The translations under genes and the position numbers were made by a program. Below the pieces are notes generated by a model. It had not been told where the DNA came from. It saw only the letters and a program-made list of their open reading frames with translations, and made no database searches. Of a stretch of 64,000 bases of DNA, positions 14,182 to 40,171 are shown piece by piece; positions within the stretch are counted from its first letter, which is position 1; every line of letters begins with the position of its first letter. Source of the DNA: Pseudomonas sp. PSKL.D1 (lineage in GTDB: Bacteria > Pseudomonadota > Gammaproteobacteria > Pseudomonadales > Pseudomonadaceae); contig NZ_CP118607.1 of NCBI RefSeq assembly GCF_028898945.1, positions 4,884,001 to 4,948,000 on the forward strand, written 5' to 3'.

Positions 14182-15354
14182 TTATTCCAGGGCTGCCGCC
14201 GGCCCGAAGAACTCATACCGGCTCTGCTGCTCAGGCACACCCAGCCCCTTCAGGTGCCGCTTGATAGCCGCCATGAACCCTTTCGGCCCGAGGAAGTAGG
14301 CATCCACATCCCGCCCACCCGGCATCCACTCACCCAGCAGATCCTGGCTCAACAAGCCAACGGCGTCTGCCCCCTCCCCTGCCTCGTCATAGCAATAGAA
14401 GCGCTTGAGCTGCGGATGCTTCCCCGCCAGGTCATCCACCCAATCACGGAACGCGTGCACGGCACCATTGCGCGCACAGTGAATGAAATGCACCGGGCGC
14501 TGGGTCTGCAATGCGGCTTCCAGCATCGCCAGCGTCGGCGTGATGCCAACGCCACCGCTGATCAGCACAAGCGGCTTGTCACTGGCAGCCAGAGAGAAAT
14601 CACCGGATGGCGGAAACAGTTGCACGGTATCGCCTACCATCAGTTCATCATGCAGGTAGCTGGACACCTTGCCACCGGCTTCACGTTTCACACTGATCCG
14701 GTATTCCCGCCCATTACACAACGCAGACAATGAGTAGTTACGACGCTGCTCGGCGCCATCAATGAATAGCTGCACGCCGATGTACTGACCCGGCTCAGCC
14801 TTGAGCACGGGTTTGCCATCCACAGGGGCAAAGTAAAAGGACACGATCTCGCTGCTTTCCTGCACGCGACGCTCCAGCCGGAATTCCCGGGCACCGCGCC
14901 AGCCGCCAGCCGATTGTTCCTTCTCTTTATAGAGGTTCTCTTCGGCACCAATCAGGATGTCGGCCAACTGGCCATAAGCCGCCCCCCAGGCCGCGATCAC
15001 TTCTGGGGTGGCAATTTCCTTGCCCAGCACTTCCTCGATGGCCCGCAACAGGCAGCTACCGACAATCGGGTAATGCTCCGGCAGAATCTGCAAGGCCACA
15101 TGCTTGTTGATGATCTGACCGACCAACCCGCCAAGCTGTTCCAGCTTGTCAATGTGGCGGGCATACATCAGCACGCCATTGGCCAAAGCGCGCGGCTGGT
15201 CGCCACTGGCCTGGTGGGCCTGGTTAAACAGCGGGCGAACCTCGGGGTACTCGCTGAGCATCAGCTTGTAAAAGTGAGTGGTCAGTACTTCACCACCCGT
15301 TTCAAGCAGCGGGACGGTGGCTTTGATGATGGCACGTTGTTCAGTGTTAAGCAT
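14182..15354 (-). CDS. hmp: Flavohemoprotein (nitric oxide dioxygenase)
   Basis: Hmp oxidises nitric oxide to nitrate with oxygen and NAD(P)H. The 390-aa protein has an N-terminal globin domain with distal Tyr29, Phe43 and proximal His85 (INKHVAL). A ferredoxin-reductase-type module follows, with the flavin motif RRNYSL and the nucleotide-binding GGVGITP. The frame is open further upstream, but MLNTEQ with AGGA nearby is the conserved start. A sigma-54-like promoter and three NorR-type sites lie directly upstream, so NO induction through norR is expected even though an unrelated gene separates the two. Confidence 0.96.
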   Translation of the reverse strand: MLNTEQRAIIKATVPLLETGGEVLTTHFYKLMLSEYPEVRPLFNQAHQASGDQPRALANGVLMYARHIDKLEQLGGLVGQIINKHVALQILPEHYPIVGSCLLRAIEEVLGKEIATPEVIAAWGAAYGQLADILIGAEENLYKEKEQSAGGWRGAREFRLERRVQESSEIVSFYFAPVDGKPVLKAEPGQYIGVQLFIDGAEQRRNYSLSALCNGREYRISVKREAGGKVSSYLHDELMVGDTVQLFPPSGDFSLAASDKPLVLISGGVGITPTLAMLEAALQTQRPVHFIHCARNGAVHAFRDWVDDLAGKHPQLKRFYCYDEAGEGADAVGLLSQDLLGEWMPGGRDVDAYFLGPKGFMAAIKRHLKGLGVPEQQSRYEFFGPAAALE

Positions 15355-15399
15355 TTCAGCAATTCCTGGGCCGGTGGCTTTGAAAGGTTGCGTTATGCA

Positions 15400-15417
15400 C
15401 AACATGAAACGTGCCAA
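15400..15417 (-). promoter_or_regulatory. Sigma-54-like promoter of hmp
   Basis: On the minus strand TTGGCACGTTTCATGTTG carries a perfect -24 element (TTGGCACG) and a weaker -12 element, where ATGT stands in for TTGC with the G kept. Transcription would start near 15390, leaving a leader of roughly 36 bases before hmp. NorR is a sigma-54 activator, so the promoter class fits. Confidence 0.7.
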
Positions 15418-15457
15418 CTAAAAAAATCATCAAAATCAATAAGTTAGTTTTTTAGTG

Positions 15458-15512
15458 GTCATAATGACTCAGCACTATCGATAGTCACACTGACTTTAAT
15501 GGTCATTTTGAC
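15458..15512 (-). promoter_or_regulatory. Three NorR-type enhancer sites for hmp
   Basis: Three copies of GTCA-N3-TGAC lie at 15458-15468, 15484-15494 and 15502-15512, with centres 26 and 18 bp apart. This is the known NorR core (GT-N7-AC), and three sites match the enhancer layout described for E. coli NorR. They sit about 40-95 bp upstream of the -24 element. All but the first base lies within the last codons and stop of the neighbouring 655-aa gene. Confidence 0.8.
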
Positions 15513-17426
15513 TTCAAGCTCGGCAGCTCCCAGAGCAACAGGGCTGGGGCGAGAACCCCCGCTACTCAAACTGCCAAGCTGCCGCACATCACCACGATCC
15601 ACAGAGTACGTGACCGACATCGCTTGCCCATCAAACGGCTCAATCACCGATTGATCTACCTCGAAGAAGAACGGGAACCCCTGAAACTGCTTGGACGGCT
15701 CATAAGGTGGAGGGTTGACGCCGGCCGCCAGACCAAAATGAAGGGTGACCATTTCCCCCTGACGTAGGGGGGCATGGGAAGGAACACGGATATAGGCAAC
15801 AGGCGTTTCCACCGGCAACCATACATCCGCACCGTCAACCTGCAACTCATCGCAAGTGGGTGCTGGAAGATCAACGGCCCCATTGTCCACGACACTATAA
15901 GTGATCTCGGGCGATGGTCGACGAATTCCCAATGACGGTGAATAAACTGAATAGCTCAGGGTCAGCCTACCACTGACCAATACCGCCAAATACGTTTTAT
16001 CCACCGGGAATGCCAGTGGCACGCCTGCGCCACCTGGTGGAATGGGCAGCATCGGTTGATACACCATCGGAGTGCCCTCGCCCACCTGCCCTGTCCAGAA
16101 CAACGTGACTTGATCACCTTCCGCCTGCCCAGGGTAGAGAGGAATATCCACGTACACCAAATCACCCGCGAATTTTGCCAAATCAATAACCAAGCCATCT
16201 GCATCTCTGAAGATCGGAGCCAACAATCCGATACCCAAGCCTTTGACTGTGATGCTGCGCGTGAGTGATCTCTTACCCGTGCCGGGATTGACGTCATAGT
16301 AGAGACGAGCGGAGCCGTTAACACTCAAGACGGCAATTGTATAAGGCACGTATAACAGTAATAGAGACCCTGCAGCTGTTGCCTCCGGAACATCATAATT
16401 CACCTGCTGACCATCCTCGGTCATCCCTGCCCAGTGCAACACCACCTTATCGCCGCTTACGATGTCCGGGTCGGAGACAATCACCAGCACATCCTGGCCT
16501 CCCAGTGAAACAAGGTCCAACTCGTAGGGGGGGGTTTGCGCGCGTTCGACGGTGGGGGCGTCATAGGCGTCCGGGTCAGCCACCTCGATGAATGCTGATG
16601 GGGACGGGCGTGAGTAGTTTTGAACCAGGTCACGAACCTCAAAGTACACCGGAATACGCTCGCCACTACCTCCGGCCTCAATCACACTCGGCGGCACTGT
16701 GTAGATCAGCGGGTTTTGAATGTCCTCTGCCGTCAAACGGGCGAATTCATGACGTACACCGTTCCAAACCAGTATCGGTAGATCATCCGGTTGAATGAAG
16801 GGCCACTTTGTAAACTCAACCGTAACTATCGGGAGCGGCCTTCCGATCACACCAGGCGGCTGTATCTTGGGAGCGAACAGGTTATCATTGAACGGCGTAC
16901 TCAAATCCGGGTCCAGCCCGCCAGGAACCCGTAAATCGATAAGTACTGTTCGATACTCTGAATAACGAACAGTTTCTGCGTCCGGGTCGTAAATTTCATA
17001 ATAGAAGTAGCCGTAGTACGGGTAGCTGATGCCTGACTCTGCAGGGAGTGTGAGCATGTCTCGCGTCACAGTGAAGCTTACCCAACCTTGTTCCTCTATA
17101 TCAGCAGTTAAATCATAGAACTGAATCGGCGCATCATCAGGTGCCTCAGGCTGGGACGTAGGAGGCTGTGTAGGTTCAACTCTCGTCCAGAACAAGCTGA
17201 CCTTATTACCAAGCCGAAACACCTCGGGTAGGCGTGACGTCATGGGCAGTGCACGAGTGGCGTCCGACAATTCATTCCAACCAAAGCCTTTGCTCTCGGG
17301 GTCTCGGTAATCCATGTCAGAGATCACGAGCGGATTCAGCCCCCCTTGCATTTGAGTCTTAGGCAATTTGTCGAGAATCTTCTGCCTTGCAATCCTCTGG
17401 TCTGCACGCTTTTGCTCTGCACCCAT
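15459..17426 (-). CDS. Unrecognised 655-aa protein with tandem Ig-like repeats
   Basis: I do not recognise a named family. The protein is built of about four or five beta-rich units of 120-140 residues. Each has a pattern like D-x-V-x-L-x-W-x-G early (KVSLFWTRV, KVVLHWAGM, QVTLFWTGQ, MVTLHFGLA), a middle strand near F-x-V, and an end with R-P-S-P (YSRPSPSA, IRRPSPEI, GSRPSPVA), suggesting an Ig-like fold. No signal peptide or membrane helix is seen. ATG 17426 has AGGAG nine bases upstream. The composition is visibly poorer in GC than hmp or norR, suggesting acquisition between them. It shares its repeat type with the 816-aa protein at 37447-39897. Confidence 0.75.
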   Translation of the reverse strand: MGAEQKRADQRIARQKILDKLPKTQMQGGLNPLVISDMDYRDPESKGFGWNELSDATRALPMTSRLPEVFRLGNKVSLFWTRVEPTQPPTSQPEAPDDAPIQFYDLTADIEEQGWVSFTVTRDMLTLPAESGISYPYYGYFYYEIYDPDAETVRYSEYRTVLIDLRVPGGLDPDLSTPFNDNLFAPKIQPPGVIGRPLPIVTVEFTKWPFIQPDDLPILVWNGVRHEFARLTAEDIQNPLIYTVPPSVIEAGGSGERIPVYFEVRDLVQNYSRPSPSAFIEVADPDAYDAPTVERAQTPPYELDLVSLGGQDVLVIVSDPDIVSGDKVVLHWAGMTEDGQQVNYDVPEATAAGSLLLLYVPYTIAVLSVNGSARLYYDVNPGTGKRSLTRSITVKGLGIGLLAPIFRDADGLVIDLAKFAGDLVYVDIPLYPGQAEGDQVTLFWTGQVGEGTPMVYQPMLPIPPGGAGVPLAFPVDKTYLAVLVSGRLTLSYSVYSPSLGIRRPSPEITYSVVDNGAVDLPAPTCDELQVDGADVWLPVETPVAYIRVPSHAPLRQGEMVTLHFGLAAGVNPPPYEPSKQFQGFPFFFEVDQSVIEPFDGQAMSVTYSVDRGDVRQLGSLSSGGSRPSPVALGAAELEVKMTIKVSVTIDSAESL

Positions 17427-17796
17427 GTGATGATGCTCCTGAGTTGAAAGTTTCCCGCACGACTAAAATCGTGCAGTGGAAGTACCTGAAAGTCTGCACC
17501 ACACGTTCACCCTCAGGCTTTTTCAGCATTAGCCATCTGGGCGTGGGGCGCTACCCAGCGGGAGCCAGGTTCAGCACCACCCGCGTGGGTAAGTGGAGAC
17601 TTGAATATGAGCGCAAGCCATGTTTTTCGAAACTGGTAAAAATGCTAGGTAGCACGCTCTTGGTACTGCGCGTGTGCAACGTTTCTCGTTACCCTCAGGT
17701 TGTAACAATAGTGGCAATGAACCCAACACCGTTCTACTTCGCCGCGGCTGCGTGCCAAGCGTATAGTGGCAACGATGTTCCTGAGTGCCCGCCCTG
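17427..17796. other. Divergent intergenic region before norR
   Basis: This 370-bp region lies between the divergent 655-aa gene and norR. It contains a hairpin at 17457-17474 (GCACGA / TCGTGC, six-base loop), which would fall in the leader of the 655-aa gene. No GTCA-N3-TGAC site is seen here, so the NorR sites stayed on the hmp side. I cannot place the norR promoter. Confidence 0.5.
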
Positions 17797-19344
17797 ATGA
17801 ATTCAAAACCCCTGCTCACCGCCCTGCTCCCACTGGTCAGTGACCTGTCGCGCGACCTGCCCGACCAGGAACGCTACCGTCGTCTGCTCCAGGCCATGCG
17901 AAACTTGCTACCCTGCGATGCTGCCGCGCTGCTTCGCCTGGAGGGTGAGTGGTTGGTACCGCTGGCCGTCGACGGGTTGTCCGCCGACACGCTGGGCCGG
18001 CGCTTCAAAGTCAGCGAACACCCGCGCTTTCAGGTTTTGCTCAGCCACCCGGAACCCACCCGCTTTGCCAGTGATTCAGGCTTGCCCGACCCCTACGATG
18101 GGCTGGTCAGCGCACCTGATGCCGCACTGGAAGTACACGACTGCATGGGCTGCCCGCTGATGGTCGACGAACGCCCCTGGGGCCTGGTGACCCTGGATGC
18201 CCTGACCCCAGGTCAGTTCCAGGCCCTCGATCTGGATGCCCTGCAAGCATTCGCCAGCCTGGCTGCAGCCACCGTGACGGTGGCCGAACGCATTGAGCAC
18301 TTGGCGCTGCGCGTCAAAGACGAGCAGCACCGCGCCGAACTCTATCGCCACGCCAGCAGCCAGGATAAAGAACTGATCGGCCAGAGTCCGGCGCATAAGC
18401 GCCTACAGGAAGAAATCTGCCTGGTTGGCGCAAGTGACCTCACAGTGTTGATCACCGGCGAAACTGGCGTTGGCAAGGAACTGGTGGCCTTGGCTTTACA
18501 TCAAGCCAGCAACCGCGCCAACCAGCCACTGGTCAGCCTCAATTGCGCTGCTCTGCCGGACACGTTAGTGGAAAGCGAACTGTTCGGGCATGTTCGCGGT
18601 GCCTTTACTGGCGCCCATGGTGAGCGTCGAGGCAAATTTGAACTGGCTAACGGCGGCACACTGTTCCTCGATGAAGTCGGCGAACTGCCTTTGGCCGTTC
18701 AGGCCAAGCTGTTGCGGGTGCTGCAGAGCGGGCAACTGCAACGCCTGGGTTCGGACCGCGAGCACCGGGTGGATGTGCGCCTGATCGCCGCGACCAACCG
18801 AGACCTCGCGGCAGAAGTGCGTAACGGCAACTTCCGCGCAGACTTCTATCACCGTTTGAGTGTGTACCCGCTTCACGTGCCTCCACTGCGCGAGCGCGGT
18901 CGGGATGTGCTGCTGCTGGCTGGATACTTTCTTGAACAGAATCGGTCGCGCCTTGGGCTGAACAGTTTGCGCCTCAGCCACGATGCACAGGCCGCGTTGC
19001 TTGCCTACGACTGGCCAGGCAACGTGCGAGAACTGGAACACCTGATCGGCCGCTCGGCCCTCAAGGCTAAAGGTCGGCACCCAGAGCGCTTGCGCATCCT
19101 CACCCTGGAAAGCACCGACCTTGGCTTGCAGGCCGTGGCGCCCGCAACCACTGTCTCTGCACCTGAGCCCTTGGCCATGCCGGCAGTTCAAGGCGGGTTG
19201 CGCCAGGCTGTGGACGCGTACCAACGTGAAGTCATCGACACCTGCCTGCAACGCCATCAGCACAACTGGGCAGCAGCTGCCCGAGAGCTGGGCCTGGACC
19301 GCGCCAACCTCAGCCGCCTCGCGCGGCGCTTGGGCTTGGCGTAG
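17797..19344 (+). CDS. norR: NO-responsive sigma-54 activator NorR
   Basis: NorR senses nitric oxide through a mononuclear iron in its GAF domain and activates sigma-54 promoters. The 515-aa protein has an N-terminal GAF domain, an AAA+ domain with Walker A GETGVGKE (221-228), the sigma-54 contact motif GAFTGA (268-273) and Walker [11 protein letters not shown], and a C-terminal Fis-type helix-turn-helix ([23 protein letters not shown]). ATG 17797 fits known NorR N-termini; GTG 17785 is an alternative. Its likely target is hmp, now about 2.4 kb away on the opposite strand. Confidence 0.95.
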
Positions 19345-19530: not shown

Positions 19531-22500
19531 ATGGACGCCATTGTTGTAGCCGATAAGCAAACCTCCGTTGCCACCCAGAACGCCTGGGGCAATATCACCC
19601 TCAATGACCCCGGCGTGGTGCAAATGCCGGTTGCGCCCGACCAGGTGGCCAACGTCACCCGGCGGGGCCAGGACCTGGTAGTCACGCTCAAATCCGGGGA
19701 ACAAGTCACCGTCGGCAACTTTTTCGCCGTGGACCAGGCAGGCGTGGGCAGCGACATGGTCTTTGTGGGCGAAGACGGCACTTTGTGGCACGCGGGCTAT
19801 GATGCCAACGCCTTCACCGGTTTCACCTTCGAGGAAGTGGCCTCGCTCGATCAACTGGTCGCCGGGATCGGTGTGGCCGGCAGCGCCACCTCGACTTTTG
19901 CCATTGCCGGCCTCAGCCTGCTCGGCGCTGGCGGTATTGCGGCCGCCGCCGATAACAACAGTGGCAGCAGCAGTAGCGGCGGCTCGGAGCCGGGGGACAC
20001 AACACCACCCGCAACGCCCATCGACCTGTTGGTATCACCGGACGGCCTGCGCGTCACGGGGCGAGGTGAAATAGGCAGCACCGTGAGTATCCGCGATGCC
20101 GCCGGCAACCTGATCGGTACCGGTACGGTGGGTGCCGACGGCACTTTCGACGTCAGCCTCGACTCGCCCCAGACCAATGGCGGCAACCTTGGCGTTACCC
20201 TGACCGACAGCGCCGGCAATACCTCAACGGCTGGCAGTGTCACTGCGCCGGTCGTCGACAGCAGCGACACCACCCCACCCGACCCCGTCAGCGACCTGGT
20301 GATCGCTTCCAGTGGCCTGCAACTCAGCGGCCGTGGCGAAGCAGGCGCCACCGTCACGGTGCGCAATGCCAATGGCGACTTGATCGGTACCGGCGTGGTT
20401 GGCAATGACGGCACCTTTACCATCGACCTCAACCCCGCCGCCGGGCCGGGGGAACAACTCAGCCTGGTACAGACCGACGCCAGCGGCAATGCTTCCAGCG
20501 CCGTCTCCATCGATGTGCCGCAAGCGGCCGCCCCCGAAAGCCCTACCGATGTGGCCATTTCTGCCGATGGCACTACTGTCACAGGTAACGCGCAGCCGTT
20601 CTTTCGCGTGTTCGTGCGCAACTTCCGCGGGCAAGTGATTGGCAGCGCGCAAGTCGAGGCGGATGGCACCTTCACCATCACCCTTGACCCGCCTCATACC
20701 GACGGCGAGCTACTTGAAGTAGTGGTTACCGGCAGTGATGGTGTGTCGTCCGAACCTACCGAGGTGACCGCCCCGGACATCACGGCTCCGGACACCCCGA
20801 GCGAACTCACCCTCAACGCCAGCGGCACAACGCTGACAGGCCGGGGCGAAGCAGGCACCACGGTTGAAGTACGCGACAGCAACGGCAACGTGATTGCCAC
20901 CGGCACCGTTGGCCCAGACGGCACCTTCGCACTCACGCTTGACCCACCGGCCGCTGACGGCAGCGCGCTGCAAGTGGTGCTGACCGATGCGGCGGGCAAT
21001 GCTTCCCAGCCCGGCCAGGTGACCTACCAGGACCTGCAAGCCCCTGCGCAGCCAACCGACCTCGCCTTGGCGGACGGCACCACCCTCACCGGCCGCGGCG
21101 AACCTGGGGCAACCGTGCAGGTACGCGACGCCAACGGCACGGTGATCGGCACTGCGGTGGTAGGCCCGAATGGCGACTTCAGCCTGACCCTCACACCCGC
21201 CCAGGCCAACGGTGAAACACTGGATGTGCGGCTGACAGATGCCGCCGGCAACACGTCGTCACCGTTCGAATTCGTAGCCCCGGACACCACACCGCCCGCC
21301 GACGTCAGCGATATTGCGGTCGGTAACAGTGGCCAACTGCTCAGCGGCCGTGGCGAAGCAGGTGCCACGGTCGAGGTACGCGATGCCAATGGCGATGTAA
21401 TCGGCACTGGCGTGGTCAGCGCCAGCGGTACGTTCATCATCAGCCTCGCCCCTTCCGTGCAAACCGGCGCACAGTTGAGCGTCACGCAAACCGACCCCAG
21501 CGGCAACGCCTCGGGCAGCGTGCCGTTCGTGGTGCCGGCACTCACGGCCCCCGACAGCCCGACCGAATTGGTGGTCAACGCCAACGGCACCAGCCTGAGT
21601 GGTATCGCCACCCCCAACTACCTGATTGAAGTGCATGATGCCAATGGCGCCCTGCTGGGTGTGACGGTGGCCGGTCCGGACGGTACATTCACCCTTGTCC
21701 TCAATCCACCGCAAGCCAACGGCGAGCTGCTTGAGGTCACAGCGACCGATCTGAATGGCGAATCCTCCCTGCCTGCGTTGGTCACCGCCCCCGACATCAC
21801 ACCCCCCTTGGCCCCCAACGAACTTGCCGTCAGTGCCGACGGTAGCGTGGTCACCGGCCGTGCAGAGCCTGGCAGTACCGTGCGCGTGCTTGCCGCTGAT
21901 GGCACCGAACTGGGTAGCGTGGTAGTGGGCGCCAGCGGCGCCTTCGGCATCCCGCTTAGCCCACCGCTGGTGGACGGCGAGCAGTTGCAAGTCACTGCCA
22001 CCGATGCCGCTGGCAATGCTTCCACCGCTGGCAACGTCACCGCCCCCGACCTTGGCGCCGTCGACAACACACCACCGCAGCCGGCTTCCGACCTGGCCAT
22101 CAGTGCCGACGGCAACACCGTATCCGGCCGTGGCGAAGCAGGCGCAACGGTCACCGTGCTCAACGACCAAGGCCAGGTTTTGGGGACCGGTACCGTTCAA
22201 CCCGATGGTAGCTTTACCCTGCAACTGAACGCACCCGTGGTCGATGGCTCATCGCTGCAAGTGACACTGACCGATGCCGCCGGCAACGTCTCCACGGCAA
22301 GCCCGCTGACCGCCCCTGACTTGGTAGCGCCACAGCAACCCACCGGCTTGAACCTGAGCGAGGGTGTAACCCTGACCGGCAACGCCGAAGCGGGTGCCAG
22401 GGTGGAAGTGCGCGACGCTGACGGCAACCTGATCGGCAGCGTTATCGCCGAGCCTGACGGCACGTTCAGCCTGACCCTCAGCCCTGCACAGGCCAATGGC

Positions 22501-25500
22501 GAGAGCCTGGCCATCCGCGTGATTGACGCTGCAGGCAATAGTTCGCCGCCTTTGAGCTTCATCGCACCGGATATCACCCCGCCAGAACTGGTCACCGACA
22601 TAGTGGTGGGTGACGGTAGCCTGGTGCTGGCCGGGCACGGTGAAGCGGGCGCCACCGTCCAGGTGCGCGACCTCGACGGGAACGTCATTGGCTCCGGTAT
22701 CGTCGCCGCCAACGGCACTTTCCTGATCAACCTGGACGCTGCAGTCGCTGCAGGCGACATCTTGAGGCTGGTGCAGATCGACCCGGCCGGCAACCCGTCC
22801 CCCACGCTCAGCATCATCGTATCGGCAACCCCCGTACCGGAAAGCCCCAGCAATTTGGTGGTCGCCGCCGACGGCGCTTCAATCACCGGCAGCGCGCCGG
22901 TCGGAAGCCTGGTGGAAGTGCGTGACGCCAATGGCAACGTGCTGGGCAGCATTCAAGCCGGCTCCGACGGCACCTTCAGCATCCCCCTCAACCCCGCCCA
23001 GGCCAACGGCGAACTGCTCGACGTGGTGGCCATCGACACGGATGGCAACAGTTCACTGCCAACGCCGGTCACCGCACCCGACATTACGCCGCCAAACGAA
23101 GCCAGCGACCTGCAACTCAGCGCCGACGGTCTGACCCTGAGCGGCCGTGGCGAACCCGGCGCTACCGTGCAGGTAACCGCCGCCGACGGTACCGTGTTGG
23201 GCAACGCCCAAGTGGAAGCGAACGGTACCTTCACCGTCACCCTCAACGCCGCACAAACCGACGGCCAGGTGCTGGACGTGGTGCTACGCGACGCTGCAGG
23301 CAATACCTCCACTGCCACCCTCACGGCGCCCGACCTGGATGGCCCGCTGCAACCCTCGGCCCTTGCCATTGACGCGGCAGGCCTGCACCTGACCGGCCAA
23401 GGCCAGGCCGGCTCGATCGTAACCGTGCGCGCCGGCGACGGCACCGTACTGGGCACCGCCACGGTCAATGCCAACGGCCAGTTCGACGTCACCTTGAACA
23501 CGCCGCAACGCAATGGCGAAAGCCTGACCGTTGACGCCACCGACAACCTCGGCAACAGCGCTGGCCCCGTTAACTTCACCGCCCCCGACAGTACCCCGCC
23601 GCAGGCGGTCGGCAACCCTGTGCTCGATGCCAGCGGCACCACCCTGAGCGGCTCCGGTGAACCCGGCGCCACCGTAACCGTCCGCGGGCCAGACGGGGCC
23701 GTGCTGGGCACCGCCCAGGTCACCCCGGGCGGCACCTTCGAGGTCACCCTCGACACGGCCCAGACCAACGGCCAGGCATTGACCGTTGAACAACAGGATG
23801 CCAGTGGCAACGTCTCCACCAGCACTGGCGTGCGCGCACCGGACATTGAGGCCCCCGGCATCCCCGGCAACCTCAGCCTGTCGGCTGACGGTGCCTGGCT
23901 GATCGGTACCGGTGAGCCCAACACCCAGGTGCGCGTGTTCATCGTTGGTGGCATGGTGCTGGGCACCACTGTGGTCGAGGCGGACGGCAGCTTCCGCGTG
24001 CCGCTCGACCCGCCGCAGCTCAATGGCCAGACCTTGTCCGTCACGCAAATGGACACCACCGGCAACGTATCCCCGGCTGGCACGATCACCGCCAACGATC
24101 TCGAAGGACCGCTGCCGGCCAACAGCATGGAGCTGACTGCGAACGGCACGTTGCTCAACGGCCAGGGCGAACCCAACGCCACCGTCATAGTGCGCGACAC
24201 GGCCGGGATAATTCTGGGCGTTTCCGTAGTGAACGGCGATGGCACGTTCACCGTCTCCCTCAACCCGGCACAAACCAACGGTGAAACGATCTCGGTCGTG
24301 CTCATCGACGTCGCCGGCAATGCATCGCCATCGGCGCCCTTCACCGCCGATGACACCTCTGGCCCCGTCGCCGCAACCGGGCTGCAGGTCAGTGCCGACG
24401 GCACTACCCTGCAAGGCACTGGCGAAGTGGGTGCGACCGTGGAAGTGCGCACGGCCAACGGCACACTGCTGGGGACTGTGGTGATACCGGCAGGCGGCAG
24501 TTTCATGGTTGCACTGACGCCGCCCCAACTCGACGGCCAGGTGCTGGACGTAACCCTGACCGACACCGCCGGCAACCTCTCGACAACAGCCCAGGCGACC
24601 GCGCCCGATATCACTGCGCCCGCGCAGCCCACCGACCTGGCCGTAACGCCTGACGGCCTTGCGCTCACCGGCAATGCACCCGGTGCCGCCTCGGTGTCGG
24701 TAACCGACCCCAATGGCAATGTCACCACCGTAGCCGTCAACCCGGACGGCAGTTTCAGCGTGCCGCTGGCACCTGCGTTGCTCAATGGCGAAACCCTGAC
24801 CGTTGTTGTCACGGATGCAGCGGGCAACAGCTCAGCGCCATCGTCTGTCGATGCCCTCGACACGACAAGGCCGCTGCAAGCCGAGAACCTCACCGTCAAT
24901 GCGGACGGCACGATCGTTGGCGGTAACGCTGAACCTGGCAGCACCGTGATCGTGCGTGACGCCAGTAACACCATCATCGGCAACGCCACGGTCAGGCCCG
25001 ACGGTACCTTCACCGTTGACGTCAGCCCGGCACTGGCCAGTGGCGAAACCGCGACAGTGGTGGTGCGCGACCCAACCGGCAATCTTAGTGATCCTGTGAC
25101 GGTCAGCGGCCCGGACGGCACCGAAGTCGCCACCCCCGCCAGCCTGGCCATCAGTGCCGACGGTTTTGTGCTCACCGGCGTAGGTACCGTGGGCTCGCTG
25201 ATCACCGTGACCTCCAGCGGCACCACGCTGGGTACGGCCACGGTCGGCAGCGACGGCACCTTCCGGGTGTTCTTCAGTACTGCCCAGCTCAATGCCCAGA
25301 CCTTGCAGGTCAGCGCGCGCCTGGACGCTGGCGGCAGGCCTTCGATACCCGCCTCCATTGTGGCCAACGATACAACCGCACCGGACGCGCCCAACCAGCT
25401 CAACCTCGACCGCAGTGGCACCACCCTCACCGGCCACGGCGAAGTGGGTGCCACTGTGCGGGTGGTGGATGCGCAGGGCACATTGCTGGGTAGCGGCACG

Positions 25501-28500
25501 GTAGGCAGCAACGGGCTGTTCACCGTCACGTTGGTCCCGCCGCAAGCGAACGGCCAGAACCTCACCATCACCCAGGCCGATGCCGCCGGCAACACCTCGC
25601 TGGCTGCCACGCTCCAGGCCGCCGACCTGCAGGCACCCGATGCGGCCACCGGCCTTGGCCTGAACAGCGCCGCCACAGTAGTCAGCGGCCAGGGCGAAGC
25701 AGGCGCCATCGTCACCGTGCGGGATGTGACGGGCGCGATCCTGGCTACCGGCACGGTCAACCAGAGCGGCCAGTTCCAGATCACCCTGCCCAACGCACAG
25801 ACCACCGGCAGCCCACTGCTGATCACGCTCACCGATGCGGCTGGCAACGTGTCCGGGCCGGCCAGCCTACTGACCCCGGACCGTACCCCGCCAGCCGCCG
25901 TGACCAATACCTTGCTCAGTGCCGATGGCCGGCAGTTGTCCGGCATCGGCGAGGTAGGCGCCACCGTGCAGGTGCGCAACGCTGCCGGCACCGTAGTAGG
26001 CACGGCGATAGTAGGTGCCGACGGCCGCTTTACGGTGACCTTCGATACGCCGCAAGCCACCGGCCAGGCGCTCGGCGTCAGCCAGGTGGACGCAGCAGGA
26101 AACACGTCACCGGCCATCAGCCTGCTCACCTCGGACCTCACTGCACCAGCGGCACTGACCAATGTGGTACTCAACAACAACGGCCTTACCCTGACCGGCC
26201 TGGGTGAAGCCGGTGCGACTGTGACCGTGCGCGGCCCGGACGGCACTATCATCGGCACAGGCCTGGTGGCCGCCAACGGCAGCTTTACCCTGACGTTGAA
26301 CAGCGCCCAGCTCAATGCCCAACTGCTGAGCGTGACCCAGACCGACGCGGGCAACAACACCTCGGTCGCGGTCTCGGTAACCGCCCCCGACCTTACGCCA
26401 CCGGCCGCCCCGACCGCGCTCAGCCTGGCCGCCACCGGCCTGCAGTTGAGCGGCAGCGCCGAAGCCGGCAGTACAGTGACCGTGCGCGACGCCTCCGGCA
26501 ACGTGCTGGGCACCGCCGTGGCGGGCAGCAACGGCACCTTCCAGCTCACCCTCAGCGTTGCCCAAACAAACGGCCAAAACCTGCAGGTTACTGCCACAGA
26601 CGCGGCAGGCAACGTTTCACCCGCCGCCACCCTCACCGCAGCCGACACTACCCCACCTGCCGCCGTCACCAACCTGGCCGTGGCTGCCGATGGCACGACC
26701 CTCACCGGTACCGGCGAAGCTGGCGCCACGGTGACTGTGCGGGCCTTGGACGGTACTGCACTGGGAACGGCAACCGTAGGCGTAGACGGGCGTTTCAGCG
26801 TCACCCTGTCGCCCGCCGCGCTTGCCGGTGAAGTGCTCAGCGTGGTGCAGGCGGACACTGCCCTGAATGCCTCCCCGGCCCTGACCATCACCGCCCCCGG
26901 CAACCTGGCCCCGGACATCCCCGGCAACCTGGTGTTGTCTGCCGACGGCCTGACCGTCACCGGCAGCACCTCGCCGGGCAGCACGGTGAACGTGTACGGC
27001 CCCAACGGCGTGCTGCTGGGCACCGCCGCCGCCAACAACGACGGCACGTTCAGCGTCAGCCTCGCCAACGCACAGGCCAACGGTGAAACCCTGCAAGTGA
27101 GTGCAGTCGGCAGTGACGGCAGCGCTTCGCTGCCGGCCACCTTGCTGGCCCCGGACACCACCGCACCGCTACCGCTGACTGGCCTGGTGTTGTCTGCCGA
27201 CGGCCTGACCCTCACAGGCCACGGCGAACCCGGAGCCACCGTGACCATCACCGGTACCGGCGGGGCCGAGCTTGGCACCGCCGTGGTCGATGCCAATGGC
27301 AACTTCAGCGTTACCCTCGGCGCCGCACAACTCAATGGCGAACTGCTGGGTGCCAGCCAGTCGGACGCAGCGGGCAACGAGTCCAATAGCGTCAGCCTGA
27401 CCGCCCCCGACCGCATTGCCCCCAACGCCGCTGCCAACCTGGCGTTCGCCAGTGGTGGCAGCCTGCTCAACGGTACTGGCGAAGCCGGCAGCATCGTCAA
27501 AGTGCTGGCCGCCGACGGTACGTTGCTGGGCACCGGCGTAGTCATGGGGGATGGCACCTTCCAGATCCTGCTCACCAGCCCGCAGGCCAACGGCCAGCAG
27601 GTGCAAGTGGTGCTGACCGATGCCGCCGGCAACCAGTCGGGCGCCAGCCCCATCACCGCGCCCGACACCACGCCACCCGCGGCTCCGGGTTCGCTGGCCA
27701 TCTCCAGTGACGGCATTACCCTCACCGGGCGTGGCGAGCCCGGCGCCGTAGTCAGCGTGCGCAACCCGGCAGGCGACGAAATCGGCACCGCCGTGGTGGA
27801 TGCAGCCGGGCACTTCACCGTCACCCTCACCCCGGCGCTGGGCAACGCCGAACTGCTCAGCCTTACCCAGACAGACAGTGCCGGTAACGTGTCGACGGTA
27901 GCGACGCTGCAAACGCCGGACTTCACCCCTCCTGCCCAGCTCACCAACGTGGTGATCAATGCCGACGGCAGCGTGGTCAGCGGCCAAGGCGAAGTCGGCG
28001 CAACGGTGACCGTGACCAACGCAGCCGGTGTAGTGCTCGGCACTACCCTTGTGCAGGCCGATGGCAGCTTCCGCGTCGAACTCACCCCCGCGCAAATCAA
28101 CCTGCAGGTGCTGGCCGTGCAGCAGGCCGACCCGCCCGGCAACATCAGCCTGCCGGTAAGCGTGACCGCACCCGACCTCACCCCACCGGACGCCGCCACC
28201 GGGCTGCACCTGAACGCCGCCGGCGATCAGCTGAGCGGTACCGGCGAAGCAGGCACAACCGTAAGGGTCTACCTGGGCACGGTGGAAATCGGCACGGCCA
28301 CGGTCGCCGCCAATGGCACCTTCGTGGTCAACCTGGGTACACCGCAGCTCAACGGCCAATTGCTGCAAGTGACGCTGGAAGACACCAGCAACAACCTCTC
28401 GACCGTCGCCACCATCACCGCCGCCGACACAACGCCACCGGCCACGGTCATCGCTGCGCTCAACGGCAGTGGCACACAACTGATCGGTACCGGCGAGGCC

Positions 28501-31500
28501 GGCGCACGCATCACGGTGATGAACAACCTCGGCAACATGGTCGGCCAGGGCACCATCGACCCGGACGGCAACTTCGTGCTCGATCTCACTACGGCGCAGA
28601 TCAATGGCGAAGTACTGACCGTCGTTGCCCAGGACGCAACAGGCAACCCGTCTGCCCCGCTCCAGCTCACTGCGTCCGACCTGACGCCACCGGCCACGCC
28701 CACCATCCTCACCCTGACAGGCAACGGTACGCTGCTCAGCGGCACTGCTGAAGTTGGCAGCGTCATCACCGTGCGGGGGCCAGACAACAGCTTGCTAGGC
28801 ACCGTGACCGTTCCGGCGGGCGGTGAGTTCGTGGTGGTGCTGAGCCCGGCACAAATCAATGGCCAGTTGCTGACCGTGATTGCCACCGACGCGGCGCTCA
28901 ACGCTTCGCTGCCCGCGTCGTACCAGACTGTGGATAATTCCCCCCCTGACCCTGTGACCGACCTGGCGATCAATACCGGTTACGACACGCTGACCGGGCG
29001 GGGTGAGCCAGGTGCGACCGTGGAGGTCTACCTTGGCAACGACCTGATCGGTACCGGCGTAGTCAGCGCTGCCGGCACGTTCTCGATTGCACTGGCACCG
29101 ACACCTGGCGCGGATGCCATCCTGACCGTTTTCCAGACTGACGCGGCTGGCAACGACTCGCTGGATACCACCTTCACCACGCCGCTAACCCCACCTAGCG
29201 CCCCTCCGACCAACGTAATACTGGCCGCAGACGGCGTTACCCTGACAGGCAACGCGGCCGCCACCTCAACCATTCGCGTGTACGACGCCAACGGCAACCT
29301 GCTGGCCACTGGCCTGGCCGGAATCGGCGGAACGTTCACGGTGACGCTGCCCAGTGCGCAACTCAATGGTCAGCAGCTGTCGGTCACTTCAGACCCATTG
29401 CTCGGTGACGAATCGCAACCGGTGTTTGTAGTGGCTGCCGATACCACGCCACCCGCCAACCCGGTGGTGACCTCGCTGTCTGCCAACGGCCTGGTGCTGA
29501 GTGGTACCGGTGAGGCTGGCGCGAATGTCACCGTGCGCGATGCCGGCGGCAACGTGCTGGGCACAGCTGTAGTGAACGCGGGCGGTGCGTTCAGCATCAA
29601 CCTGGCCAGTGCGCAACTAAATGGCCAGGTGCTGAGCCTTACCCAAACCGACGCTGCGCTGAACGTCTCCGGTGCCACCAGTTACACCGCACCTGACACC
29701 CAGGCCCCCGCCGCACCGACCAACCTGGCAATCAACGCCGCCGGCACCGTGCTCACCGGCACCGGCGAGCCGGGTGCAACGGTGACCGTGCAAGGCCCGA
29801 GCGGCCAGGTCGGTACCGCCGTGGTGCAATCCAACGGCAGCTTCAGCATCACCCTGACCACGGCGCAAAACGACGGGCAAGCGCTGGTGGTACGGCAGAC
29901 CGACGCGGCCGGCAACCCGTCCGGCAGCACCGGCATCACCGCGCCAGACACCACGCCACCCGCCGCCCCGGTCGCCAGCATCAACGCCAACGGCACCACG
30001 GTCAGCGGCTCTGGCCAGGTCGGTGCCACCGTCACCGTGCGCAACAGCGCCGGTACCGTGCTGGGCACCGCCACCGTGGGCAGCAACGGCCTGTTCGTGG
30101 TCAGCCTTGCCGCCGCGCAAGTCGACTTCCAGACGCTGAACGTCACCCTCACCGATGCCGCTGGCAACACCTCCACTGCCACCACGCTGAGCGCACCAGA
30201 CCTCACCCCGCCCGCCGCCGCCAGCAACCTGGTGATCAGTGCCGACGGCAGCACCCTCACAGGTACCGGCGAGGCCGGCGCCACCGTGACCGTGCGCAAC
30301 GCCAGCGGCACCGTGCTGCAAACGGCCACGGTGCAACCCAACGGCACCTTCACCGTCACCCTGAGCCCCGCCCAGGACAACGGCCAGGTGCTGTCGGTAA
30401 GCCTGACCGACCCGCGCAACAATACCTCCGGCAACGTCAACATCACCGCCCCGGACGTGGACGCCAACGCCCCGGTGATTGCCAGCGACAACCTGGCTAC
30501 CGCCACCGTAAACCTGGCGCCCGTGGTCGCGACGCAAACCTACAACGACAGCTTCTCTACCCTGCTGTCGGGCTTCAGCAAGACCTACACCTGGACGGTC
30601 GCGGCCGGCACCACGGTGGACCCGACGCTGACGCTGACCACCAACAGCGTGCTGGCTCTGCTCAACAACTCCACCTTCACCCTGCAAGTGAAGAACGCTG
30701 CTGGCGCCTGGGTAACCATCGCCACCGGCAACACCCAAGGCCTGCTCGACCTCATCATATTGCCCTTGGGCATTCAGGTGGACATGGGCACCCTGCAAGC
30801 GGGCGACTACCGCCTGACCGTCGCCAGCGGCGGCATCGGCCTGGTCACCACCGTCACCACCACGCTGGACATCGTCGCCACCAGCCTGACCCAGTTCACC
30901 GGCACCGGCACGCCGGTATCCGGCAACGTGATCAGCGACCCGGGCACGGACGGCACCACCGATTCCAGGGGGCCGGACAGCGCCGCCGTGCTGCAGGTGT
31001 TCAAGGATGGCAGTTACGTCGCCGCCGGCAGCGCCACCACCGTGCAGGGGCTGTACGGCACCCTGGTGATCCGCGCCGACGGCAGCTACACCTACACGCC
31101 CAACGGCACACCGTCGAGCGTCGGCAAGGTGGATGTGTTCAATTACCAACTGGTGCACGCCAACGGCCTCACCGACACCGCCACGCTGTATGTGCGCATC
31201 GACAGCCCGCAGGCTACGGAAATCTGGAGCAACACCAACCTCGGCGCACCCGCCACGGTGGTGGATGCGGTCAACGACATCGACAGCACCGGTATCACTC
31301 TGGTCAACCGTGAAAGCACCAGTAGCGCGACCCTGGGCACCTTGTCCTTGCCCGTGATCGGTGCCCGCAATGCGACCTACACCACCACCGTGGCCGCGGA
31401 CACCACCGCCGACCTGCAAGTGGTGGTCAACTCCACCAACCTGCTGACCCTGCTCGGCAACACCACCATCGCGCTGTATAAACTCAACACCACCACCGGC

Positions 31501-32550
31501 CAGTACGTGCTGGTGCAATCGGTGCCGGGCAGCTCGCTGCTCACCCTGTTGGGCGGTGGGGCCGCGTACACCTTCCAGGACCAGACCGCCGGCAGTTACC
31601 AGATACGCGTCAGTTCCAGCGGCATCGGGCTGTTGAGTTCGATTACCACCAGCCTGAACACCACCACCACCCACCTCAACGACTTCGTGGTCAGCAGCTA
31701 CACGCCGGTCACCGGCAACCTGATCACCGACACCTCGGGCGGCAGCGCCGACAACCTGGGTTCGACGTTGACGGTGCTGAGCGTGCTGGTGGCGGCCAAC
31801 ACCTACGCCATCCCCGGCCACAACGGCGTCAGCGTGGCCGGCACCTACGGCACGCTGGTGGTGCAGGCCGACGGCAGCTACACCTACACCCTCAACAGCG
31901 GGCTGACCTCGGCGGTGATCGGCCAGCACGACACCTTCACCTACGAACTCACCCACCCCAACGGCACCACCGACACCGCCACCCTGACCATCAACCTGGA
32001 AAACGCCGCCAGCTTCACCACCTTCACTTCACTGCTGGCCGACACCGGCGACGACAGCCTCACCGTTGCCGCCGCATCGGCCTCCACTGAAGTGATTGCC
32101 GGCACCGACGGCAACGACCATCTCGACGGCAGCCAGGGCGGGCATATCACCCTGCAAGGTGGTGCCGGCGACGACACCCTGGTAGTGGTCGACCAGGACT
32201 TCACCAGCGTCGAAGGCGGCACGGGCACCGACACCCTGCTGTGGGGCGGCGGCGATGCCAGCATCGACCTGGGCAACCTGGTCGGGCGCGTGCACGACAT
32301 CGAAATCATCGACCTCAACGACACCAGCGCGGTAAGCCTGACGCTGAACCTGGCAGACGTGGTGGCCATCACCGAAACCGGCAACAACACCCTGCTGATC
32401 AAGGGCAACGACCAGGATTCGGTGCACATGACCGACACCTGGACGCAAGCCGGCACTCAGGTGGCCGACGGAATCGACTATACCCAATACACGGCCCAGG
32501 AGGATCCGAGCCACCACTTGTGGGTGCAAAACGGCATCCATGTCGTCTGA
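19531..32550 (+). CDS. lapF: Giant repetitive biofilm adhesin, LapF/BapA type
   Basis: A 4,339-aa type I secreted surface protein that mediates cell-cell contact in biofilms by analogy with P. putida LapF. Residues 1-150 form a BapA-like prefix domain, ending in a Gly/Ala-rich hydrophobic stretch and a Ser/Gly linker. Residues 156-3642 hold 41 Ig-like repeats of about 85 aa. Residues 3643 to about 4160 hold two related modules of roughly 240-260 aa, and the tail has an RTX-like GGAGDDTL segment and a hydrophobic secretion signal. It has no Sec signal. GGGAG precedes ATG 19531. It follows norR and precedes its exporter genes, as in KT2440, whose LapF is longer (about 6,310 aa). Confidence 0.92.
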   Translation: MDAIVVADKQTSVATQNAWGNITLNDPGVVQMPVAPDQVANVTRRGQDLVVTLKSGEQVTVGNFFAVDQAGVGSDMVFVGEDGTLWHAGYDANAFTGFTFEEVASLDQLVAGIGVAGSATSTFAIAGLSLLGAGGIAAAADNNSGSSSSGGSEPGDTTPPATPIDLLVSPDGLRVTGRGEIGSTVSIRDAAGNLIGTGTVGADGTFDVSLDSPQTNGGNLGVTLTDSAGNTSTAGSVTAPVVDSSDTTPPDPVSDLVIASSGLQLSGRGEAGATVTVRNANGDLIGTGVVGNDGTFTIDLNPAAGPGEQLSLVQTDASGNASSAVSIDVPQAAAPESPTDVAISADGTTVTGNAQPFFRVFVRNFRGQVIGSAQVEADGTFTITLDPPHTDGELLEVVVTGSDGVSSEPTEVTAPDITAPDTPSELTLNASGTTLTGRGEAGTTVEVRDSNGNVIATGTVGPDGTFALTLDPPAADGSALQVVLTDAAGNASQPGQVTYQDLQAPAQPTDLALADGTTLTGRGEPGATVQVRDANGTVIGTAVVGPNGDFSLTLTPAQANGETLDVRLTDAAGNTSSPFEFVAPDTTPPADVSDIAVGNSGQLLSGRGEAGATVEVRDANGDVIGTGVVSASGTFIISLAPSVQTGAQLSVTQTDPSGNASGSVPFVVPALTAPDSPTELVVNANGTSLSGIATPNYLIEVHDANGALLGVTVAGPDGTFTLVLNPPQANGELLEVTATDLNGESSLPALVTAPDITPPLAPNELAVSADGSVVTGRAEPGSTVRVLAADGTELGSVVVGASGAFGIPLSPPLVDGEQLQVTATDAAGNASTAGNVTAPDLGAVDNTPPQPASDLAISADGNTVSGRGEAGATVTVLNDQGQVLGTGTVQPDGSFTLQLNAPVVDGSSLQVTLTDAAGNVSTASPLTAPDLVAPQQPTGLNLSEGVTLTGNAEAGARVEVRDADGNLIGSVIAEPDGTFSLTLSPAQANGESLAIRVIDAAGNSSPPLSFIAPDITPPELVTDIVVGDGSLVLAGHGEAGATVQVRDLDGNVIGSGIVAANGTFLINLDAAVAAGDILRLVQIDPAGNPSPTLSIIVSATPVPESPSNLVVAADGASITGSAPVGSLVEVRDANGNVLGSIQAGSDGTFSIPLNPAQANGELLDVVAIDTDGNSSLPTPVTAPDITPPNEASDLQLSADGLTLSGRGEPGATVQVTAADGTVLGNAQVEANGTFTVTLNAAQTDGQVLDVVLRDAAGNTSTATLTAPDLDGPLQPSALAIDAAGLHLTGQGQAGSIVTVRAGDGTVLGTATVNANGQFDVTLNTPQRNGESLTVDATDNLGNSAGPVNFTAPDSTPPQAVGNPVLDASGTTLSGSGEPGATVTVRGPDGAVLGTAQVTPGGTFEVTLDTAQTNGQALTVEQQDASGNVSTSTGVRAPDIEAPGIPGNLSLSADGAWLIGTGEPNTQVRVFIVGGMVLGTTVVEADGSFRVPLDPPQLNGQTLSVTQMDTTGNVSPAGTITANDLEGPLPANSMELTANGTLLNGQGEPNATVIVRDTAGIILGVSVVNGDGTFTVSLNPAQTNGETISVVLIDVAGNASPSAPFTADDTSGPVAATGLQVSADGTTLQGTGEVGATVEVRTANGTLLGTVVIPAGGSFMVALTPPQLDGQVLDVTLTDTAGNLSTTAQATAPDITAPAQPTDLAVTPDGLALTGNAPGAASVSVTDPNGNVTTVAVNPDGSFSVPLAPALLNGETLTVVVTDAAGNSSAPSSVDALDTTRPLQAENLTVNADGTIVGGNAEPGSTVIVRDASNTIIGNATVRPDGTFTVDVSPALASGETATVVVRDPTGNLSDPVTVSGPDGTEVATPASLAISADGFVLTGVGTVGSLITVTSSGTTLGTATVGSDGTFRVFFSTAQLNAQTLQVSARLDAGGRPSIPASIVANDTTAPDAPNQLNLDRSGTTLTGHGEVGATVRVVDAQGTLLGSGTVGSNGLFTVTLVPPQANGQNLTITQADAAGNTSLAATLQAADLQAPDAATGLGLNSAATVVSGQGEAGAIVTVRDVTGAILATGTVNQSGQFQITLPNAQTTGSPLLITLTDAAGNVSGPASLLTPDRTPPAAVTNTLLSADGRQLSGIGEVGATVQVRNAAGTVVGTAIVGADGRFTVTFDTPQATGQALGVSQVDAAGNTSPAISLLTSDLTAPAALTNVVLNNNGLTLTGLGEAGATVTVRGPDGTIIGTGLVAANGSFTLTLNSAQLNAQLLSVTQTDAGNNTSVAVSVTAPDLTPPAAPTALSLAATGLQLSGSAEAGSTVTVRDASGNVLGTAVAGSNGTFQLTLSVAQTNGQNLQVTATDAAGNVSPAATLTAADTTPPAAVTNLAVAADGTTLTGTGEAGATVTVRALDGTALGTATVGVDGRFSVTLSPAALAGEVLSVVQADTALNASPALTITAPGNLAPDIPGNLVLSADGLTVTGSTSPGSTVNVYGPNGVLLGTAAANNDGTFSVSLANAQANGETLQVSAVGSDGSASLPATLLAPDTTAPLPLTGLVLSADGLTLTGHGEPGATVTITGTGGAELGTAVVDANGNFSVTLGAAQLNGELLGASQSDAAGNESNSVSLTAPDRIAPNAAANLAFASGGSLLNGTGEAGSIVKVLAADGTLLGTGVVMGDGTFQILLTSPQANGQQVQVVLTDAAGNQSGASPITAPDTTPPAAPGSLAISSDGITLTGRGEPGAVVSVRNPAGDEIGTAVVDAAGHFTVTLTPALGNAELLSLTQTDSAGNVSTVATLQTPDFTPPAQLTNVVINADGSVVSGQGEVGATVTVTNAAGVVLGTTLVQADGSFRVELTPAQINLQVLAVQQADPPGNISLPVSVTAPDLTPPDAATGLHLNAAGDQLSGTGEAGTTVRVYLGTVEIGTATVAANGTFVVNLGTPQLNGQLLQVTLEDTSNNLSTVATITAADTTPPATVIAALNGSGTQLIGTGEAGARITVMNNLGNMVGQGTIDPDGNFVLDLTTAQINGEVLTVVAQDATGNPSAPLQLTASDLTPPATPTILTLTGNGTLLSGTAEVGSVITVRGPDNSLLGTVTVPAGGEFVVVLSPAQINGQLLTVIATDAALNASLPASYQTVDNSPPDPVTDLAINTGYDTLTGRGEPGATVEVYLGNDLIGTGVVSAAGTFSIALAPTPGADAILTVFQTDAAGNDSLDTTFTTPLTPPSAPPTNVILAADGVTLTGNAAATSTIRVYDANGNLLATGLAGIGGTFTVTLPSAQLNGQQLSVTSDPLLGDESQPVFVVAADTTPPANPVVTSLSANGLVLSGTGEAGANVTVRDAGGNVLGTAVVNAGGAFSINLASAQLNGQVLSLTQTDAALNVSGATSYTAPDTQAPAAPTNLAINAAGTVLTGTGEPGATVTVQGPSGQVGTAVVQSNGSFSITLTTAQNDGQALVVRQTDAAGNPSGSTGITAPDTTPPAAPVASINANGTTVSGSGQVGATVTVRNSAGTVLGTATVGSNGLFVVSLAAAQVDFQTLNVTLTDAAGNTSTATTLSAPDLTPPAAASNLVISADGSTLTGTGEAGATVTVRNASGTVLQTATVQPNGTFTVTLSPAQDNGQVLSVSLTDPRNNTSGNVNITAPDVDANAPVIASDNLATATVNLAPVVATQTYNDSFSTLLSGFSKTYTWTVAAGTTVDPTLTLTTNSVLALLNNSTFTLQVKNAAGAWVTIATGNTQGLLDLIILPLGIQVDMGTLQAGDYRLTVASGGIGLVTTVTTTLDIVATSLTQFTGTGTPVSGNVISDPGTDGTTDSRGPDSAAVLQVFKDGSYVAAGSATTVQGLYGTLVIRADGSYTYTPNGTPSSVGKVDVFNYQLVHANGLTDTATLYVRIDSPQATEIWSNTNLGAPATVVDAVNDIDSTGITLVNRESTSSATLGTLSLPVIGARNATYTTTVAADTTADLQVVVNSTNLLTLLGNTTIALYKLNTTTGQYVLVQSVPGSSLLTLLGGGAAYTFQDQTAGSYQIRVSSSGIGLLSSITTSLNTTTTHLNDFVVSSYTPVTGNLITDTSGGSADNLGSTLTVLSVLVAANTYAIPGHNGVSVAGTYGTLVVQADGSYTYTLNSGLTSAVIGQHDTFTYELTHPNGTTDTATLTINLENAASFTTFTSLLADTGDDSLTVAAASASTEVIAGTDGNDHLDGSQGGHITLQGGAGDDTLVVVDQDFTSVEGGTGTDTLLWGGGDASIDLGNLVGRVHDIEIIDLNDTSAVSLTLNLADVVAITETGNNTLLIKGNDQDSVHMTDTWTQAGTQVADGIDYTQYTAQEDPSHHLWVQNGIHVV
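19996..30456 (+). repeat. 41 tandem coding repeats of about 255 bp
   Basis: Each unit encodes a variant of: D-T-T-P-P linker, L-x-I-S-A-D-G, L-T-G-x-G-E-A-G-A-T-V, V-R-x-x-x-G, L-G-T-A-x-V, G-x-F, A-Q-x-N-G-Q-x-L and D-A-A-G-N. I counted 41 by the x-G-x-G-E core and its variants. The region of 10,461 bp over 41 gives 255 bp per unit. Units 3, 7, 12, 21, 28 and 37 lack the usual linker and D-A-A-G-N motifs. Repeats of this length can change number by recombination and are a risk for assembly errors. Confidence 0.9.
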
Positions 32551-39897: not shown

Positions 39898-40171
39898 CGA
39901 ACACCTTCCTTACAATAGCGGACAGACTAAATTAAAGCCCCCCGAAAAATTGCCGGAGCAGGCTACCGTCACAGGGCGCTGGAGTATATGTAACGCCCTC
40001 ACGAATACTAAATTCAGGCAGAGCACCTGTAACCTGGCATTTTTACTAGGTAGGCCATTGCCCCCGTAGCGCGTATAAATCACTTAATCGCATTAGCCCA
40101 TAAAAATACCAACGCCTGAAAACCAAGACTTGCAGCTGCCCAACTCAAAGCTGGGTAAGGGAGAACAACCG

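Follow-up and report, generated by a model that had tools for sequence, protein, structure and literature searches.

The closest described systems are those governed by NorR, a sigma-54-dependent NO-responsive regulator. In Escherichia coli, according to Bush et al. 2010 (PMC2941729), activation requires three enhancer sites, on which NorR assembles into a higher-order oligomer, and NO relieves the repression of the AAA+ domain by the GAF domain. In Pseudomonas, NorR sites upstream of the flavohaemoprotein gene hmp were predicted by Rodionov et al. 2005 (PMC1274295), who define them as three tandem inverted repeats GT-(N7)-AC and place those of P. stutzeri at -192, -173 and -148, that is, with spacings of 19 and 25. 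Sigma-54 elements inside coding sequence are common in E. coli and some are functional promoters, as reported by Bonocora et al. 2015 (PMC4591121). A limited literature survey for an enhancer over a start codon, or for a C-terminal extension by stop loss, gave nothing directly comparable.

The window analysed here, a stretch of 64,000 nucleotides from Pseudomonas sp. PSKL.D1, resembles the Pseudomonas hmp loci treated in PMC1274295 in that norR and hmp are clustered and a tandem triple of NorR sites accompanies a sigma-54 promoter, the 19/25 spacing of P. stutzeri being close to the 19/26 of its relatives. It departs from the loci presented there in carrying a 655-aa gene between norR and hmp, whose end lies over all three sites, and in a spacing of 18 between sites 1 and 2. 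The E. coli norR-norVW locus, as far as it is set out in PMC2941729, likewise combines three enhancers upstream of a sigma-54 promoter with a NorR made of GAF, AAA+ and DNA-binding parts, but in the window the target is hmp, not norVW, and the enhancers lie in the coding DNA of another gene. As at the E. coli intragenic sites covered in PMC4591121, sigma-54 regulatory elements are found inside coding sequence; unlike those sites, they are enhancers rather than -24/-12 elements, and the coding sequence appears to have grown over older sites. The features of the locus are the following.

14182..15354, minus strand: hmp, NO-inducible flavohaemoprotein of 390 aa (NCBIfam NF009805 at 569.8 bits, cut-off 432)
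15402..15417, minus strand: predicted sigma-54-type hmp promoter, with -24 TTGGCACG at 15417-15410 and -12 ATGT at 15405-15402
15434..15446, plus strand: IHF-consensus site AATCAATAAGTTA, between enhancers and promoter, a perfect WATCAANNNNTTR
15458..15468, minus strand: predicted NorR site 3, GTCATTATGAC on the hmp strand, exact palindrome, its TGA being the stop of the 655-aa gene
15484..15494, minus strand: predicted NorR site 2, GTCAGTGTGAC on the hmp strand, exact palindrome inside the 655-aa coding sequence
15502..15512, minus strand: predicted NorR site 1 of the hmp side, GTCAAAATGAC on the hmp strand, exact palindrome inside the 655-aa coding sequence
15515..15581, minus strand: strong hairpin in the tail-coding DNA upstream of site 1, with no T-run and not called a terminator
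15459..15593, minus strand: lineage-specific C-terminal tail, residues 612-655 and stop, its enhancer-coded end without counterpart in 12 homologues
15459..17426, minus strand: the inserted gene, coding for a 655-aa protein of beta-sandwich repeats whose function is unknown, without a Pfam or NCBIfam family at E<=0.001
17739..17784, minus strand: putative decayed remains of the control region beside norR, comprising site 2 and part of the norR -10, ACTATACGC
17797..19344, plus strand: norR, sigma-54-dependent NO-responsive regulator (NCBIfam NF003451 at 777.7 bits, cut-off 476)

The explanation that we favour, with a probability of roughly 0.78, is that an ordinary NorR/IHF/sigma-54 region received an insertion that has control sequence on both sides, and that the inserted gene later ran on at its C-terminus in this lineage; the sequences compared suggest this, and from them we infer binding of NorR and IHF, induction by NO and the order of events. 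Control regions of this kind were already predicted for Pseudomonas, and what is new is the overlap of site 1 with the norR start (76/76 loci) and a gene end that would have grown over enhancers.

An exact search found three GTCA-N3-TGAC palindromes upstream of hmp, GTCATTTTGAC at 15502-15512, GTCACACTGAC at 15484-15494 and GTCATAATGAC at 15458-15468, which lie 158, 140 and 114 bp before the hmp ATG; they form a tandem array of three GT-(N7)-AC inverted repeats ahead of the promoter. The -24 element contains the expected GG (TTGGCACG, 15417-15410). The sequence-only reading had described three such sites and a -24 element in the order expected upstream of hmp, and both the search and the reading of the sequence bear it out: on the minus strand, the end of the protein at residue 611 is followed by the hairpin, sites 1, 2 and 3, the IHF-consensus site, the -24, the -12 and the hmp ATG at 15354. 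Hmp itself has its globin, FAD and NAD domains and passes the curated equivalog cut-off. The stretch at 15434-15446, which the sequence-only reading does not mention, is a putative IHF site, from its agreement with the IHF consensus WATCAANNNNTTR. The textbook -12 consensus of sigma-54 promoters is TTGC, and the window reads ATGT, keeping the G of the GC element and not the C. The textbook pattern TGGCAC-N5-TTGC, with one mismatch allowed, misses the hmp promoter and gives 13 matches against 10.9 expected by chance; after it failed, the promoter was judged by position-wise comparison with relatives, in which the central TG of the -12 is kept in 79/80 aligned promoters, ATGT occurs in 7/80, and TTGC in that of P. 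wayambapalatensis alone. The ATGT and the 18-bp spacing between sites 1 and 2 depart from the common form, and promoter strength may differ. The stretch 15402-15512 is read as a predicted ordinary Pseudomonas hmp (fhp) control region, in which a sigma-54 promoter is preceded by an IHF bend and three enhancers for NorR.

The comparison rests on an Hmp scan of genome contigs that matched 191 relatives, from which the best 80 were taken (L031-L110); L072 starts inside hmp and was left out, leaving 79 loci, or 80 regions with the window. Among these best matches, three GTC-N5-GAC sites stand at matching positions in 78/79 relatives (79/80 regions with the window). In the 77/79 relatives that are insert-free, norR and hmp are divergent and close; a gene of the 655-aa family lies between them in the other two, L040 (Pseudomonas sp. 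GD04091) and L060 (P. wayambapalatensis). The divergent norR-hmp distance is about 154 bp in most relatives, the tabulated gaps of 133-149 running to the equivalent of the window GTG at 17785 and needing 12 more to reach the norR ATG. The site spacings of the 79 triples are 19/26 in 74, 20/26 in three, 19/25 in one and 18/26 in the window alone, and apart from this 18 in place of 19 or 20, site 1 of the window corresponds in position to site 1 of the 76 insert-free triple loci. In 79/79 triple regions TGGCA starts 51-53 bp downstream from the beginning of site 3, and the perfect IHF consensus is found in 29/80 regions at -85 to -94 from the hmp ATG. Exact GTCA-N3-TGAC letters are less frequent, at 18/76 insert-free loci for site 1, 9/76 for site 2 and 20/76 for site 3; all three are exact in 2/80 regions, the window and L098. 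The only region without a full triple is L087, whose site 3 reads GTCTTTATTAC. Two loci titled as Pantoea (L056, sp. Cy-639; L065, sp. Ap-967) have a Pseudomonas-like hmp-norR locus, and their titles look mislabelled.

Because the triple is present in 78/79 relatives, and 77/79 are without the insert, predicted NorR/sigma-54 control of hmp looks ancestral, and the proposal that relatives lacking the 655-aa gene should have the same three sites is upheld in the insert-free genomes. Single exact palindromes do occur at three other places in the window, as would be expected if the sites were chance palindromes in coding DNA, and yet this account is practically out of the question. The same triple at the same place in the 78/79 other loci excludes it, and about 4e-7 exact triples are expected per 5.88-Mb genome under a first-order Markov model with 5 nt of slack per spacing. 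The 64-kb window holds six exact palindromes against 0.88 expected, a number reached by 0/100 shuffles; genome-wide, three exact-palindrome pairs lie 4-30 nt apart, two within the hmp triple and one elsewhere, and the reversed control pattern gives none.

Enhancers over a coding end are the usual state of this region, with norR as the usual partner, because site 1 holds the norR start codon in 76/76 insert-free loci with a full triple. In all 76 norR begins Met-Thr, GTCAT being the complement of ATGAC, and a Shine-Dalgarno-like stretch, by a loose pattern, lies beside or within site 1. A TATA follows site 2 in 70/76 loci by pattern; toward norR it reads TATAGT, which would resemble a -10 element. 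The frequency of the norR-start overlap suggests that it is the ancestral state. In the window, where a norR gene is recognized by NF003451, its start was set at the ATG at 17797 from the MT.. start of the relatives, the ORF caller giving GTG 17785. The second codon makes Met-Asn in the window, Met-Phe in L060 and Met-Thr in L040, where the adjoining site survives, so that the three insert loci fit the idea that the DNA site may fix this codon. Unlike in insert-free relatives, no clear Shine-Dalgarno sequence precedes the window norR ATG (17760-17797), and norR translation may be weaker. With no intact sites over the norR start, any autoregulation through them would be expected to be lost.

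The norR side of the insert has its own record of the control region. The norR sides of the window and L040 give a 46-bp gapless alignment that 0/1000 shuffles equal; window-L060 and L040-L060 match weakly (8/1000 and 17/1000 shuffles as good). Against the 77 insert-free regions, shuffles do as well in 0/300 cases for L040, 1/300 for L060 and 5/300 for the window, whose own match is weak, its best local match being only 13 bp, and leans on the link through L040. The L040 norR side keeps GTCATAAGGAC and GTCATTGCGAC, followed by TATAC, and those of L060 and the window are more decayed. Because the hmp side has all three sites and the norR side resembles the insert-free region, the insertion appears to have left control-region sequence on both sides, three sites by hmp and a remnant by norR. 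The idea that the gene joined without loss of the NO-control sites holds as far as sequence goes, all three being intact beside hmp; the further idea that its 3' end arrived already over the operator is not supported, as the gene stops before site 1 in L040 and L060. A TTGGCACG string at 17758-17751 on the minus strand, within the norR-side remnant and without a -12 element, is probably chance.

The proposal that the gene was captured together with the operator may still hold in the sense that the insert brought one of the two control copies. In its strong form, gene and operator arrived together from another Pseudomonas lineage, the resident copy being the decayed one by norR, an account that is possible but doubtful. 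It would explain why control-region sequence flanks the insert on both sides, and the spacer from site 3 to the promoter, 80-88% AT in the three insert loci, finds its best matches (66-71%, against medians of 37-42%) outside the putida group as presumptively assigned. AT-rich DNA inflates such matches, however, and the insert-free neighbours L057 and L107 are themselves 76% and 68% AT; over the whole region the window is best matched by L051, L040 by L057 and L060 by L040, all of the putida group, and no donor was found. The joined hmp and norR tree places the window with L107 (0.98), L040 with L057 (0.99) and L060 with L068 and L070 (0.98), and in the hmp, norR and joined trees alike the three insert loci are not grouped, the separate trees disagreeing on neighbours. 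A single origin of the three insert alleles therefore goes against the trees, yet the window and L040 share their norR side; transfer, loss or repeated gain may account for this.

As the sequence-only reading had noted, the inserted gene has its last 17 codons and its stop on the enhancers: the frame ends at 15459 with the TGA of site 3, and the final 54 nt (15512-15459) take in the whole of sites 1 and 2 and the greater part of site 3, reading GTC AAA ATG ACC ATT AAA GTC AGT GTG ACT ATC GAT AGT GCT GAG TCA TTA TGA. A homologue search at E<=1e-30, in which only the 7999 candidates sharing most words were scored, gave 12 homologues with 39-51% identity over 89-93% of the query. All 12 match the body of the window protein up to about residue 611 in the alignment, and most finish at this point or no more than a few residues away, P0004 slightly beyond; the exception is P0011 (997 aa), which continues with further repeats and was aligned partly to the window tail with little similarity, so that the gene may have carried an older extension as far as about residue 638. 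The enhancer-coded end is found in 0/12 homologues and is private to the window among the sequences compared. Only one homologue, P0003, which is L040, has an established genome position. The genes at the L040 and L060 spot are 49-50% identical to the 655-aa gene; there the stop is followed by a GC-rich hairpin and then by site 1, and the sites are noncoding.

The palindromes themselves leave one way through. The frame GTC ANN NTG AC is open through site 3 in 59/79 regions, 56 of which stop later and three have no stop in the stretch read, and in the two other frames a stop comes in or ahead of site 3 in 79/79. The window is the only one of the 79 regions in which this frame (frame 0) stops in site 3, as expected with its sites 1 and 2 one base closer (18 bp). 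The best reading of the tail, or at any rate of the part coded by the enhancers, is a later run-on of the gene into control DNA that would already have been there. Above 51% identity the protein search, among its 7999 scored candidates, returned only the window's own sequence, and with no close relative of the window allele the run-on is neither polarised nor dated; the stop may have been lost by substitution, indel or deletion. Third-position GC is 0.39 over residues 638-655 against 0.57 in the body, which says little, as 13% of 18-codon body stretches are as low.

It could be argued instead that the tail works in the protein, for instance as a last beta-strand, and that the overlap is selected at both levels. 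Residues 635-640 are predicted to form a strand, GTCANNNTGAC in the open frame encodes the strand-like Val-x-[Leu/Met/Val]-Thr, and P0011 does go on past residue 611. This view is nonetheless quite improbable: no homologue of the 12 has the enhancer-coded end, the other two insert loci do without it, and the predicted model has pLDDT below 50 across the whole tail. In this AlphaFold model (13 sequences, mean pLDDT 81.3), values below 50 occur only at residues 170-178 and 612-655, and the 44-residue tail is almost uncovered by alignment rows, which alone lowers pLDDT and makes it weak evidence by itself. Under the run-on reading the peptide tail is probably a by-product, one that would be dispensable. 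The earlier proposal of a dual constraint on Val-Thr-Ile-Asp-Ser and similar codons survives in its DNA half, as the conserved sites support a constraint at the DNA level on the last 17 codons and stop; its protein half does not, given the missing counterpart in 12 homologues and the low pLDDT.

Upstream of site 1, a 97-nt stretch containing the hairpin folds at -45.9 kcal/mol (z -4.1), and L040 and L060 also have hairpins ahead of site 1 (z -4.1 and -6.8, respectively), all scores being from mononucleotide shuffles only. Homology of the window and L040 hairpins is unproven, because that of the window starts much nearer the conserved protein end. No terminator was called between the 655-aa gene and hmp (15300-15700), and no Rfam match reached the gathering score in 15000-18000. 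As the two genes also share their orientation, hmp might be read mainly from the transcript of the inserted gene, the sigma-54 elements being a relic. There is little to recommend this: a relic should decay like the norR-side copy, and all three palindromes are exact in the window, which is true of only 2/80 regions.

The model proposed here for the control of hmp follows the E. coli mechanism, by analogy with which NorR would assemble on the three sites, NO would relieve its GAF domain, and IHF-assisted looping would let NorR open the sigma-54 promoter, with hmp as the target. The starting state would have been divergent norR and hmp genes, with the norR start codon in site 1. In an ancestor of the window locus, a beta-sandwich repeat gene would then have been inserted between them, leaving control sequence on both sides; the hmp-side copy would have kept all three sites, and the norR-side copy of the window would have decayed. 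Later, in the window lineage alone among those compared, the frame would have run past its old end through the hairpin and sites 1 and 2, using the frame that the palindromes usually leave open, and it now stops at the TGA of site 3. This would be a natural case in which an insertion separated two functions and the end of another gene then grew over the enhancers, and it offers a compact, testable illustration of regulatory DNA that shapes the ends of proteins and of a bidirectional control region surviving an insertion. A rather improbable extension, offered tentatively, is that an enhancer array can swap its coding partner, first the norR start and then a new tail on another protein, with norR freed, and that transcription and translation through the enhancers may couple the inserted gene to the NO control of hmp.

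The inserted gene has no Pfam or NCBIfam family at E<=0.001. Pfam at E<=1 over 13 members of the 655-aa family gave six families, the best of which, TOBE_2 (3 members, E 0.0016), was not taken as meaningful, and Foldseek matched the protein to multi-domain beta-sandwich proteins with low TM-scores. No further insert could be placed between norR and hmp in 57 relatives and three overlapping genus draws (398, 398 and 328 genomes), for which queries and E-value cut-offs differed; this count leaves aside the contexts of G256, G320, G407 and G136. The nearest further match, in G332, lies by eye beside an HlyD-type gene and not at norR-hmp.

The inserted gene is probably under its own control, as suggested by a palindrome at 17631-17650 upstream of it. 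The palindrome AMCTRGYAWWWWTRCYAGKT (<=2 mismatches) has 20 genomic occurrences against one for the reversed control, and it looks like a putative operator of a dispersed regulon. Palindromes of this type at 17631-17650 and 40032-40051 precede the 655-aa gene and an 816-aa repeat protein gene (37447-39897), respectively, and by eye similar stretches precede the homologues in L040, L060 and L111. In the window, the 816-aa gene stands beside an HlyD-type gene (36200-37384) of a large-adhesin cluster, and the G332 genome (L111) has, by eye, a 655-family gene where the window has the 816-aa gene, beside an HlyD-type gene; such genes seem to occur at either edge of the norR-adhesin block. After norR comes a 4339-aa repeat protein (19531-32550), which is LapF-like by its position and repeats, and then, by eye, outer-membrane-, ABC- and HlyD-type genes.
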